From the NCBI RefSeq assembly GCF_003253485.1, contig NZ_QKTX01000005.1:124001-188000 (forward strand): a stretch of 64,000 nt of DNA, written 5' to 3'. How positions within the stretch are numbered: position 1 is the stretch's first letter; every line of letters begins with the position of its first letter. Positions 3,483 to 36,791 of this stretch are shown piece after piece. Under the pieces are notes generated by a model that searched no databases, was not told the origin of the DNA, and worked only from the letters and a program-made list of their open reading frames with translations. The DNA comes from Algoriphagus aquaeductus. Lineage in GTDB: Bacteria; Bacteroidota; Bacteroidia; Cytophagales; Cyclobacteriaceae. The position numbers were made by a program, and so were the translations under genes.

Positions 3483-4433
3483 ATGAGAAAAATAAAACTA
3501 GTAGAAGTACGCTCGGAAATTGCGGCAGGAACCAGAGGTGCAAGTTTGGGAGTGGATGCACTCAAAATTGCAAGCTTGGATAAGAAGTCTAATTTTTTCA
3601 CTCAGTTTGATCCGATCAACGTTCCCGATGCCAACAATTTTCTATGGAAAGGAAATAAGCATCCTCATGCAAAGTACATCGATGGCGTATATCAAGTTTT
3701 GAAAAACGTCTACTCCACCATCGAGTCGCTTCGATTAGAGAAGAAATTCCCTATCGTGTTGGCTGGAGATCACAGCACCGCAGCCGGCACCATCATGGGG
3801 ATCAAAGCGGCCCATCCCGAAAAGCGTCTTGGCGTGATCTGGATCGATGCTCATGCCGATCTGCATACGCCCTATACCACACCATCGGGGAATATGCACG
3901 GGATGCCATTGGCCATGGTAGCCCAACTGGATAATTTAGAATGCAAAGTCAATCAACCTCTTGCAGAAACCCTTTCCTATTGGGAAAAAATCAAAAAAAT
4001 AGGAGGCGATTCGCCTAAAATTGATCCACGAGACGTGGTGTTTATCTCCGTACGTGACACCGAAGAACCGGAAGATTTTTTGATCAAAAAATATGGAATC
4101 AAGAATTTCAGCACGGCTGAGGTCCGGCAATTGGGAATCTCAAAAGTTGCTCAAGAAGCCCTTCAAACTTTAAAGGACTGCGATCAGCTCTACATATCAT
4201 TTGATGTAGACAGTCTGGACAGTTCTATTTCAGTCGGTACAGGTACGCCTGTGCCCAATGGTCTCACGGTAGAAGAAGCCATCCAACTCAATGCGGAGTT
4301 GATCAAAGACAAGCGGGTTTGCTGCTGGGAAATCGTGGAAGTGAATCCCACGCTCGACACCGAAAACACGATGGCCGAAATCGCTTTTGATGTCTTGGAA
4401 ATCACTACTAAGTCGCTGGTAGACAACTTTTAG
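3483..4433 (+). CDS. Arginase family ureohydrolase
   Basis: 316 residues. Manganese ligands of the ureohydrolase fold are visible: H97 in A-G-D-H-S, D122/H124/D126 in D-A-H-A-D, and D241/D243 in S-F-D-V-D-S-L-D. S-G-N-M-H-G-M-P (135-142) and E286 (E-V-N-P) are arginase-type substrate-binding signatures; agmatinases usually differ at the first. The expected reaction is L-arginine to L-ornithine plus urea. The first glycine of the usual G-G-D-H is Ala here. The divergent neighbour across a small unknown gene is arginine decarboxylase, which makes agmatinase a formal alternative. The motif favours arginase. Confidence 0.75.
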   Translation: MRKIKLVEVRSEIAAGTRGASLGVDALKIASLDKKSNFFTQFDPINVPDANNFLWKGNKHPHAKYIDGVYQVLKNVYSTIESLRLEKKFPIVLAGDHSTAAGTIMGIKAAHPEKRLGVIWIDAHADLHTPYTTPSGNMHGMPLAMVAQLDNLECKVNQPLAETLSYWEKIKKIGGDSPKIDPRDVVFISVRDTEEPEDFLIKKYGIKNFSTAEVRQLGISKVAQEALQTLKDCDQLYISFDVDSLDSSISVGTGTPVPNGLTVEEAIQLNAELIKDKRVCCWEIVEVNPTLDTENTMAEIAFDVLEITTKSLVDNF

Positions 4434-4436
4434 TCT

Positions 4437-4470
4437 AGCCACAAAGAACACCAAGAAACACAAAGAGATG
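4437..4470 (+). repeat. Left arm of inverted CACAAAG repeat flanking the GxxExxY gene
   Basis: A 34-nt stretch begins AGCCACAAAGAACACCAAG and ends with ACACAAAGAGATG. It aligns with the reverse complement of 4882-4915, with 25 of the first 31 positions identical. It ends on the start codon of the GxxExxY gene. Confidence 0.65.
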
Positions 4471-4878
4471 ATAACCTTTAGCCATTTAAGTGAAAATGAA
4501 CTGAGTAATATTGTGCTTGGAATTGCGATAGACGTTCATTCTCAGCTTGGACCTGGCCTTTTGGAAAATGTTTATAAGCAAGTTTTGTTTCACAAGCTTA
4601 CGAAGGCGGGTCTTTTTGTTGAAATGGAAAAAAATATGCCCATTCAAGTGGATGATTTGATACTAGATCTGGGTTACAAAATCGATCTATTGATAGAAAA
4701 CAAACTTGTTTTGGAGCCGAAATCAGTCAAAGAAATATCCAATGTGCATGTTGCTTAAGTAATTAACTATCTGAAACTGGGCAAATTTAAATTAGGATTA
4801 ATCATAAATTTCAATGTGTATCAATTAAGATCAGGAATCAAAAGGGTCATTTTAACGGAAGGCCCCAGGTCCTTTTGA
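4468..4878 (+). pseudogene. GxxExxY family PD-(D/E)XK-fold protein, interrupted by one in-frame stop
   Basis: The first 96 codons match the GxxExxY family: G-P-G-L-L-E-N-V-Y gives the name motif, and D73 with E83-P-K85 fits the PD-(D/E)XK nuclease-fold core. A TAA at 4756-4758 stops translation where relatives usually read Q, in V-A-Q-x-x-x-Y-L-K-L. The same frame then continues with Y-L-K-L-G-K-F-K-L-G-L-I-I-N-F-N-V and G-I-K-R-V-I, the usual family C terminus, up to TGA at 4876. One CAA/CAG-to-TAA change therefore explains the break, and the repaired length would be 136 residues. The gene is flanked by inverted repeat arms. The function of the family is not established. Confidence 0.8.
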
Positions 4879-4901
4879 TTGATTTTCTTTGTGTACCTTC
4901 G
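4874..4901 (+). promoter_or_regulatory. Candidate promoter for argS inside the right repeat arm
   Basis: TTTG at 4874-4877 and TACCTTCG at 4894-4901 resemble Bacteroidota -33/-7 elements with a 16-nt spacer, slightly short. The start codon of argS follows at 4930. The -7 element falls within the repeat arm. Confidence 0.35.
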
Positions 4902-4915
4902 CGTTCTTTGCGGTT
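4882..4915 (-). repeat. Right arm of inverted CACAAAG repeat
   Basis: Read on the minus strand it begins AACCGCAAAGAACGCGAAGG and continues ACACAAAG. It is the inverted partner of 4437-4470, and the two enclose the GxxExxY pseudogene. ACCGCAAAGAACGC recurs exactly at 36763-36776. Confidence 0.65.
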
Positions 4916-4929
4916 AATATTTCAGTAAA

Positions 4930-6720
4930 ATGAACTTTCAAGAATCCATCATTCAAGGCATACAGTTAGCCTTTCAGAATATATTCAACCATGATCTTCC
5001 TTTAGAGCAGATCAGTCTTGCTCCTACCAAAAAGGAATTTGAGGGCAGTTATACTTTCGTGGTCTTCCCTTTTCTCAAAATCTCCCAAACGACTCCGGAA
5101 AATACCGGAAATCTTATTGGCGAGTACCTGAAGGCCAATGTTCCTGCTGTCCGGGATTTCAATGTGGTCAAAGGTTTCTTGAACTTGGTCCTCAACGAAC
5201 GGGTGTGGCTGGATCTCTTCCAAAAAATCTACAGCAATCATTCTCTAGGCCAACTCCCCTCCAATGGCCAAAAGGTCATGGTGGAGTACTCCTCTCCCAA
5301 TACCAATAAGCCGCTTCACCTCGGGCATCTTCGAAATAACTTCCTGGGTTATTCTGTGGCCGAAATCCTCAAAGCCAACGGCTACGAAGTCATCAAAGCC
5401 AACCTGGTCAACGATCGGGGTATCCACATCTGCAAATCCATGGTGGCTTATCAGCACTTTGGCAATGGAGAAACCCCCGAAAGCTCCGGATTGAAAGGCG
5501 ATCACTTGGCGGGGAAGTATTATGTCAAGTTTGATATCGAATACAAAAATCAGATCAAAGAGCTGATCTCCCGGGGTCAATCTGAAGAGGAAGCCAAGAA
5601 AAATGCACCAATTCTCCTGGAAGCCCAGGAAATGCTCCGAAAGTGGGAAGCAGGAGACGAGGCGGTGGTTTCTCTTTGGAAGCAGATGAATAGTTGGGTA
5701 TATGCGGGATTTGATGCCACATATCGAAAAATGGGAGTCAACTTTGACAAATTTTACTACGAGTCAGACACTTACCTGCTCGGAAAAGATATTGTTGAAG
5801 AAGGCCTCGCAAAAGAAGTCTTTTTCAAAAAAGAAAACGGATCCGTATGGGTGGACCTGACGGATGAAGGATTGGATGAAAAACTGGTTCTCAGAGGAGA
5901 TGGCACTTCCGTATACATCACCCAAGATATGGGAACAGCCGATCTGAAATACAAGGATTTCCAGATTGACAAATCCGTATATGTAGTTGGAAATGAACAG
6001 GATTACCACTTTGATGTCCTGTTTAAGATCATGCGAAAATTGGGCCGTTCTTACGGTCCGGGCTTGTACCATCTTTCTTATGGTATGGTGGATTTGCCTA
6101 CCGGAAAAATGAAATCCCGCGAAGGGACAGTCGTCGATGCAGATGACTTGATTCAGGAAATGATCGAAACGGCCGAGCATCACACCAAAGAACTTGGGAA
6201 AATCGAAGGCTTTACCGAGGAACAGGCCAAAGAACTATATGAAATCCTGGGACTGGGTGCTTTGAAATATTTCTTGCTCAAAGTAGATCCCAAAAAGCGG
6301 ATGCTTTTCAATCCTCAGGAATCCATCGAATTTCAGGGATATACCGGCCCGTTTGTACAGTATTCTCACGCACGAATCGCTGCAATTTTGAGGAAAGCGG
6401 ATCAAATCGGCGTGGATTACCAAACCCATGATTTTTCGGGTGTAGGTGAATTGGCAGATTCAGAAGCAGCTTTGATTCAGATTTTGAATGATTTTGAGCG
6501 GAAAATCAAAATGGCTGCTGAGGAATATTCTCCTTCCATTCTTGCCCAATACCTGTTTGACTTGGCCAAGGAATACAACCGCTTTTATGCAGATCTTCCT
6601 ATATTTCATGAAAAAGATCAAGCGATTCAATCTTTCCGAGTAGCACTTTCTGCACTTACAGCCAAAACAATCAAAAAAGGGATGAGTTTGCTAGGCATAC
6701 AAGTCCCTGAACGAATGTAA
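4930..6720 (+). CDS. argS: Arginyl-tRNA synthetase
   Basis: 596 residues, normal for the class I enzyme, which charges tRNA-Arg with arginine using ATP in the cytoplasm. An N-terminal additional domain (about 1-105) precedes the catalytic domain. The HIGH signature is H-L-G-H-L-R-N (130-136). The KMSK-like loop is K-M-K-S-R-E-G near 393. The DALR anticodon-binding domain starts near V-Q-Y-S-H-A-R-I (about 475) and runs to the end. ATG 4930 follows the repeat-bearing gap. The glutathione peroxidase gene begins 2 nt after its stop, so the two are probably cotranscribed. Confidence 0.97.
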   Translation: MNFQESIIQGIQLAFQNIFNHDLPLEQISLAPTKKEFEGSYTFVVFPFLKISQTTPENTGNLIGEYLKANVPAVRDFNVVKGFLNLVLNERVWLDLFQKIYSNHSLGQLPSNGQKVMVEYSSPNTNKPLHLGHLRNNFLGYSVAEILKANGYEVIKANLVNDRGIHICKSMVAYQHFGNGETPESSGLKGDHLAGKYYVKFDIEYKNQIKELISRGQSEEEAKKNAPILLEAQEMLRKWEAGDEAVVSLWKQMNSWVYAGFDATYRKMGVNFDKFYYESDTYLLGKDIVEEGLAKEVFFKKENGSVWVDLTDEGLDEKLVLRGDGTSVYITQDMGTADLKYKDFQIDKSVYVVGNEQDYHFDVLFKIMRKLGRSYGPGLYHLSYGMVDLPTGKMKSREGTVVDADDLIQEMIETAEHHTKELGKIEGFTEEQAKELYEILGLGALKYFLLKVDPKKRMLFNPQESIEFQGYTGPFVQYSHARIAAILRKADQIGVDYQTHDFSGVGELADSEAALIQILNDFERKIKMAAEEYSPSILAQYLFDLAKEYNRFYADLPIFHEKDQAIQSFRVALSALTAKTIKKGMSLLGIQVPERM

Positions 6721-27439: not shown

Positions 27440-27495
27440 TCTCCTTTATCTGCGGAAATCTGTGACTTTTTCTGTGAAAATCTGTGGGAAATAAG
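27440..27495. repeat. Degenerate ATCTGTG repeat
   Basis: ATCTGCGGAAATCTGTGACTT, TCTGTGAAAATCTGTGGG and similar units repeat here. An inverted fragment, TTCACAGATTTCAC, lies at 28629-28642 after the LD-carboxypeptidase gene. Confidence 0.45.
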
Positions 27496-36761: not shown

Positions 36762-36791
36762 CACCGCAAAGAACGCAGAGAAACGCAAAGG
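36762..36791 (+). repeat. Solo copy of the ACCGCAAAGAACGC repeat
   Basis: CACCGCAAAGAACGCAGAGA followed by AACGCAAAGG matches the right arm of the GxxExxY cassette over ACCGCAAAGAACGC (14 of 14). No GxxExxY gene is adjacent here. Confidence 0.65.

Follow-up and report, generated by a model that had tools for sequence, protein, structure and literature searches.

Three described systems come closest to the element reported here. Nucleases of the Cas4 type possess an active site with E, D, ExK and QxxxY motifs, together with Cys ligands of an Fe-S cluster. According to the available part of one article, REP repeats carry a GTAG or CGTC tag at one end (PMC3733652), and the available part of another describes an intervening sequence of Coxiella in which terminal inverted repeats surround an S23p gene (PMC4990558). 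For the GxxExxY family, whose name appears in the accessible text of PMC8934634, neither a published role nor a published description of flanking arms was found in the open-access literature, in which the literal arm strings occurred solely in papers whose titles and abstracts concern other subjects.

The window, i.e., the whole 64,000-nt stretch of the Algoriphagus aquaeductus genome analyzed here, contains a GxxExxY gene between two inverted arms. Its features are given below, and the two neighbors are presumably metabolic genes:

3483..4433, + strand: left neighbor, which we take to be an arginase-family gene; it ends in a stop codon immediately outside the left arm
4436..4466, + strand: left inverted arm, with units CACAAAG, CACCAAG and CACAAAG separated by AA and AAA
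4468..4878, + strand: GxxExxY (TIGR04256 / PF13366) gene with a predicted Cas4-like PD-(D/E)XK nuclease fold, interrupted by a TAA at 4756-4758
4886..4916, - strand: right inverted arm, with units CGCAAAG, CGCGAAG and CACAAAG separated by AA and GTA when read on the minus strand
4930..6720, + strand: right neighbor, presumably the arginyl-tRNA synthetase (argS) gene; its ATG is 13 nt from the right arm
27448..27490, - strand: gene-less single arm of the CACAGAT flavor found at gene copies L003 and L006; extent by reading
36763..36790, + strand: gene-less single arm with the grammar of the window arms, ACCGCAAAGAACGCAGAGAAACGCAAAG; no inverted partner was seen

The sequence-only reading of this DNA had described a nuclease-fold gene enclosed by 34-nt inverted arms with 25 of the first 31 positions matching. 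The arms are 31 nt long, 81% complementary (25/31) and 419 nt apart, and their alignment score of 32 was reached by 0 of 2000 shuffles in which two-base blocks of the same flanks were permuted (maximum, 28), which confirms the match; the pairing register is that of the earlier description, and by reading, the extra inner bases of the 34-nt version are mostly unmatched. Each arm consists of three 7-nt units, the left and right arms are in the same register, and the left arm is separated from the ATG at 4468 by a single base. The gene bracketed by the arms matches TIGR04256 (E 5e-24) and PF13366 (E 1e-22); the latter is its only Pfam match, with neither an HUH/Y1 transposase nor PF05635 found, and the element lies between two protein genes, outside any rRNA gene. 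When counted on the translation, residues G30, E33, Y36, D73 and E83-P-K85 were all located, D73 and E83-P-K85 being at the positions previously assigned to them.

What the earlier description had missed is the in-frame TAA at 4756-4758, at which the open frame of the window copy stops after 96 aa. The truncated frame still scores 84.8 bits against TIGR04256, above the curated cut-off of 35, and the family match, which contains one TAA, continues past it from 4498 to 4848. Because the frame resumes to the next stop, a TGA at 4876-4878 that is seven bases before the right arm, the gene once filled the space between the arms and the window copy is interrupted. In the alignment, the site of the TAA is occupied by Gln in 37/37 relatives, which we take to be the Q of the motif called QxxxY. 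The orthologue in the sister genome G004 is without interruption across the matched codons, and dN/dS between it and the window copy is 0.03 (dS 1.87, near saturation), both of which suggest a recent interruption, provided that the TAA is not an error of sequencing.

The genome of the window possesses nine PF13366 genes, eight of which have inverted arms. The letters of the arms differ among the copies and their build is similar: CGCAAAG/CGCAGAG/CGCGGAG units at L001, CACATAG units at L002, CACAGAT units at L003 and L006, which lie in tandem, with hairpins between the two genes and on both outer sides, AGGATT-type at L007 and borderline CTCGCAG-type at L004 (1/500 shuffles as high). L005 is without arms (39/500 shuffles as high). 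The ninth copy, L385, has CACAGAT arms and a 72% inverted repeat, assigned by the inverted repeat and by reading rather than by shuffles; this copy (G000:C2:216593-216934) also contains an in-frame TAA. Two layouts are found, one with the gene in the loop formed by a single pair of arms (the window copy and L001) and the other with a whole hairpin on either side of the gene (L002 and L003). Gene-less hairpins with the same flavors as the gene copies are scattered through this genome.

The pairing of gene and arms is found in 15 phyla. Of 569 confirmed loci the best 80, all named, were examined, and these therefore lean to the relatives of the query; many of them come from metagenome bins, for which the assigned phylum may be mistaken. 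Among these best 80 of 569, 74 pass either an inverted-repeat or a motif test, including 33/34 outside Bacteroidota, so that, as had been anticipated, arms are present at most gene copies. An arm motif is found ≤300 bp from the gene at 64 of these 80 loci vs. 4/346 random places, and the three-unit motif reaches a density of 3.06 per kb ≤150 bp from the gene vs. 0.03 per kb at >5 kb; there are 72 matches ≤150 bp from the gene at these loci and none for the reversed control. The arms, whose unit consensus is CRCNNAG-like, are placed mostly in inverted order around the gene: in the nearest bin, upstream motifs are oriented + in 24 cases and - in 10, and downstream motifs - in 33 and + in 5. An in-frame stop within the matched stretch occurs at 5 of the best 80 loci.

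Because the motif was written after the arms had been seen, a motif-free alignment of the left flank with the reverse complement of the right flank serves as an independent test. The alignment score beats 20 shuffles in 61/78 loci (the best 80 of 569 minus two whose flanks are too short). Among loci with ≥150 bp of flank on each side, a score of at least 28 is obtained for 68/104 GxxExxY loci vs. 9/165 control small ORFs from the same contigs, and a score of at least 40 for 40/104 vs. 2/165; inverted arms are thus scarce around unrelated genes. Left and right flanks of the same GxxExxY locus score 39.4, vs. 19.3 for flanks of mismatched loci. The nine high-scoring control ORFs comprise two IVP genes (one below the curated cut-off), one GxxExxY gene, one Y1 transposase gene and five others. 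The same control scan found a Y1 transposase-like gene between CTTCAGGATTTGCAAATCCTGAAG-type repeats at L015:2448-3002.

The unit letters match the type of protein that they flank. On a tree of 113 proteins, of which 89 rows have a clear unit, the commonest unit requires 36 changes vs. at least 43 in 1000 label shuffles. Arm profiles correlate with protein similarity over all pairs (0.192; 0/1000 permutations), within phyla (0.312; 0/1000) and across phyla (Spearman 0.143; 1/1000), and in the closest tenth of protein pairs, cross-phylum arms resemble each other as much (0.573, n = 98) as same-phylum arms do (0.500, n = 218). An alignment-based Mantel comparison of arms and proteins gives a weak correlation (r = 0.124; 74/2000 permutations), weaker than that obtained with the unit profiles. 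Together, the tracking of the protein by unit letters and arm profiles suggests that the gene and its arms are modestly coupled, either in evolving or in traveling.

Gene-less arms are dispersed mainly in genomes that carry the gene. A GxxExxY gene is found in 74 of 148 sampled genomes of the phylum (one of the 74 scores below the family cut-off), and, in agreement with the earlier expectation that the arms go with the gene, a strict arm pattern is present in 37/74 gene-carrying vs. 5/74 gene-free genomes (contingency 37/37/5/69, P 4e-9), being absent from the other half of the gene-carrying genomes (37/74). With arms adjoining the genes included in these genome-level counts, the strict pattern has 224 matches in gene-carrying vs. 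6 in gene-free genomes and the reversed pattern 6 and 6, and the number of matches correlates with gene copy number (rho 0.47). For instance, G062 has 57 matches with 4 genes and G084 has 25 matches with 4 genes. In the fetched loci, 25/35 pattern matches vs. 17/138 control places fall outside ORFs of ≥120 codons, and the gene-less hairpins are scattered between ordinary genes.

In G084 (L213-L230), a family of ~100-bp elements with the ends AGGGTRGTTCY... and ...RGAACYACCCT carries one CRCARAG arm in the middle of each element. By our own count, 15/20 fetched arm places of this genome show both element ends; since the arms are mostly inside another element, an unrelated transposase may have spread part of them. 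In G062 (L233-L252), two hairpin subfamilies sometimes stand side by side, one with CGCAAAG units 1 nt apart and the other with units 2 and 5 nt apart.

The GxxExxY protein models as a Cas4-like PD-(D/E)XK nuclease. A named relative, L015, was modeled by AlphaFold2 with a pLDDT of 94.6, and Foldseek with this model finds SSO0001 (4ic1), which we take to be a Cas4 protein, first at E 0.0011, followed by LHK-Exo and lambda exonuclease, with no match below E 0.001. In VIA, whose fold list re-examines the matches of Foldseek itself, this model aligns with SSO0001 over 99 residues (Z 9.7, 3.2 Å), and Cas4 profiles of PADLOC match 17/37 family members weakly (best E 2e-5). In an alignment of 37 proteins drawn from the best 80 of 569 loci, E27, D67, E77, K79 and Q91 are invariant and Y95 is present in ≥90%, and none of the invariant or near-invariant columns is a Cys. 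The catalytic residues are conserved and the gene is under purifying selection, with orthologue dN/dS of 0.03-0.05 in 4/7 pairs with unsaturated dS. The invariant residues and these ratios point to an enzyme that is functional in the relatives.

At the arginase-argS junction, 24 genomes of the genus match, of which nine have the gene and its bracketing DNA and 13 are without the gene; the remaining two (G008 and G014) are not readable across the junction. The nine junction proteins form one clade (support 99; the row of G001 is partial). This clade indicates one old insertion, by which the element came to the junction a single time, early in the genus; it was then inherited, lost in some species and interrupted in the window copy, and has not moved recently. 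The arms of G000, G004, G023 and G021 are mainly CAAAG-type, and those of G009, G017 and G019 are mainly CAGAG-type in both arms. The two arms have thus changed together in place at one locus: when left arms are scored against right arms, the values are 37 and 44 inside the two groups and 22 and 19 across them, from which it follows that something keeps the two arms alike. The left-right match is poorer in G001 and G016 (25 and 30). By reading, the gene-free junctions show either no arms or an argS-side remnant (G010 and G018), so the arms seem to fade once the gene is gone. The gene of G016 at this junction (L099) seems, by reading, to have an in-frame stop too, so that decay at this locus may not be limited to a single lineage.

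We propose that GxxExxY nuclease and inverted arms constitute a widespread two-part element, i.e., a REP/RAYT-like system with a different enzyme, and we give this proposal an even chance of being right. An enzyme gene accompanied by substrate-like repeats that are matched to its type, occur gene-less elsewhere in the same genomes and decay once the enzyme is gone is the pattern expected from such a system. The protein would recognize the units that make up its own arms, probably during replication, while the paired arms are extruded or in single-stranded form. It would nick or trim the DNA at the arms, and repair would copy one arm onto another, by which the two arms would be kept alike, arms would be carried to new intergenic places and the riding gene would be preserved. 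The system may thereby work like REP/RAYT, a Cas4-type nuclease replacing the HUH transposase.

The concerted change of both arms at one junction also fits a reading in which the arms are a by-product: template switching at replication would homogenize the inverted repeats, the gene would be merely tolerated and the protein would be inactive on the arms. Template switching can keep inverted repeats alike with no enzyme needed, and several gene-less hairpins occupy the same sites in sister species, as this reading would have it. What it leaves unexplained are the ~100-fold enrichment of arms at the GxxExxY family, the protein-specific unit letters across phyla and the excess of arms in gene-carrying genomes, and we consider it rather unlikely.

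The unit structure, the gene-less derivatives and the tandem L003/L006 copies are what would be seen if the nuclease were a transposase in the strict sense, inserting the unit as a whole, i.e., a mobile element proper consisting of a transposon and its MITEs. The site of L003 in the sister genome G215 (flanks 92 and 94%) is occupied by a 100-bp gene-less hairpin, which also accords with a mobile element, and the same site in G014 and G021 measures 62 and 70 bp and is armless by reading. The sites of L002 in relatives are occupied by other DNA or are not resolved, the intergenic DNA of the gene-free arginase-argS genomes is too diverged for exact element ends, and six gene-less hairpin sites compared with three sisters are conserved or diverged with no clean insertion. 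Neither a target duplication nor a clean empty site was found at the arginase-argS junction, L002, L003 and the six hairpin sites, so the empty sites in relatives that the sequence-only reading had looked to did not appear among the sites compared. Its idea of a REP-like cassette is supported in part by the likeness to REP systems; recent mobility of the window unit is not supported, given the single inherited clade and the interrupted copy, and homing is conjectural. Against a mobile element proper stand this inheritance, the lack of recent jumps at the sites compared and the rarity of homologues outside chromosomes, as one query protein found GxxExxY homologues in 7/72,556 plasmid records and 0/50,697 phage records. 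We judge it improbable that the element is a transposon in this sense.

A further alternative is that the element acts at the level of RNA like the intervening sequences of 23S rRNA, the arms pairing in the transcript for processing, stability or autoregulation. The terminal inverted repeats around the S23p gene of Coxiella, as given in the part of PMC4990558 available, lend it some weight, as does the arm build shared by IVP-family genes in the phylum. Inverted arms above shuffles are found at 18/30 IVP genes (TIGR02436, four-helix-bundle; L183-L212), whose arm unit has, by reading, a period of ~7 nt with TTAGCTA, CAAGTAT and GAGTCAT types, and IVP flanks score 28.8 when matched vs. 23.2 for mismatched loci. 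The CRC motif occurs ≤300 bp from none of the IVP genes, vs. 35 matches at 29 GxxExxY loci. The mismatches of GxxExxY arms on the sense strand, however, have no G-U-compatible bias (97 vs. 93, P 0.83, 68 loci), which favors action on DNA, and a comparison with Rfam gave nothing at E ≤1; an RNA-level role is accordingly doubtful in our view. Lastly, the nuclease fold and the PADLOC Cas4 matches (best E 2e-5) could point to a defense or toxin-type nuclease with the arms as regulatory or self-protection sites, but matches to defense models are weak and gene-less arms are scattered between ordinary genes, and we regard this as very improbable.

Returning to the two-part element that we prefer, the parallel with IVP leads us to a broader and more tentative suggestion, possible but not one that we would count on: GxxExxY and S23p/IVP, although unrelated as protein families, may both belong to a single undescribed class of chromosomal repeat-maintaining systems that is found in many phyla. 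Each would read its own unit grammar (CRCNNAG-like or of ~7-nt period), keep its arms alike by cut-and-copy repair and spread gene-less hairpins. The family name GxxExxY is built from a motif, and the pairing with arms gives the family a testable role, with an enzyme and its candidate substrate found together. If the two-part element is real, the REP/RAYT idea, in which dispersed hairpins are shaped by small chromosomal enzymes, would gain a second class of enzyme. A widespread type of intergenic repeat would then be accounted for, and there would be a nuclease whose DNA recognition is readable from its flanks. The IVP parallel may also bear on the role of the S23p gene in intervening sequences.

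Two other candidates were compared and rejected. The BrickBuilt MITE of P. gingivalis, in the available part of its description (PMC4596501), is a 23-nt tandem repeat whose grammar is unlike that of the GxxExxY arms, and the Thiomargarita MITEs, which in the accessible text of PMC4853749 are linked by the authors to PD-(D/E)XK_2 genes, involve PF12784, another family, and are a lead only.

With Cas4, RecB and lambda exonuclease, GxxExxY shares the E, D, ExK and QxxxY residues and the predicted fold; it differs from these nucleases in being a minimal domain of 125 residues that is bounded by arms and in being without the conserved Cys for an Fe-S cluster. With the 23S rRNA intervening sequences that contain S23p (PF05635 / TIGR02436), the shared feature is a small ORF between inverted repeats, whereas the protein family is another one and the window element is not in rRNA. 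The likeness to REP/RAYT (REPtrons and TIRtrons) is closer in arrangement: a small enzyme gene between inverted repeats, with few gene copies per genome, and related gene-less repeats dispersed between genes in gene-carrying genomes. The REP/RAYT comparison drawn from the sequence alone was therefore apt, since genes of PF01797 (Y1 transposases, which include RAYTs and serve as the known positive) from the same phylum reach inverted-flank scores of at least 28 in 13/27 loci and at least 40 in 9/27 by the same measure (27 of 30 loci, three having been dropped as cut), and since the gene-less hairpins are dispersed. The CRC motif is absent ≤300 bp from the 27 PF01797 genes tested. The two systems differ in their enzymes, PD-(D/E)XK in GxxExxY and HUH/Y1 in REP/RAYT, and in their repeats, the GxxExxY arms consisting of a 7-nt unit repeated at short intervals.
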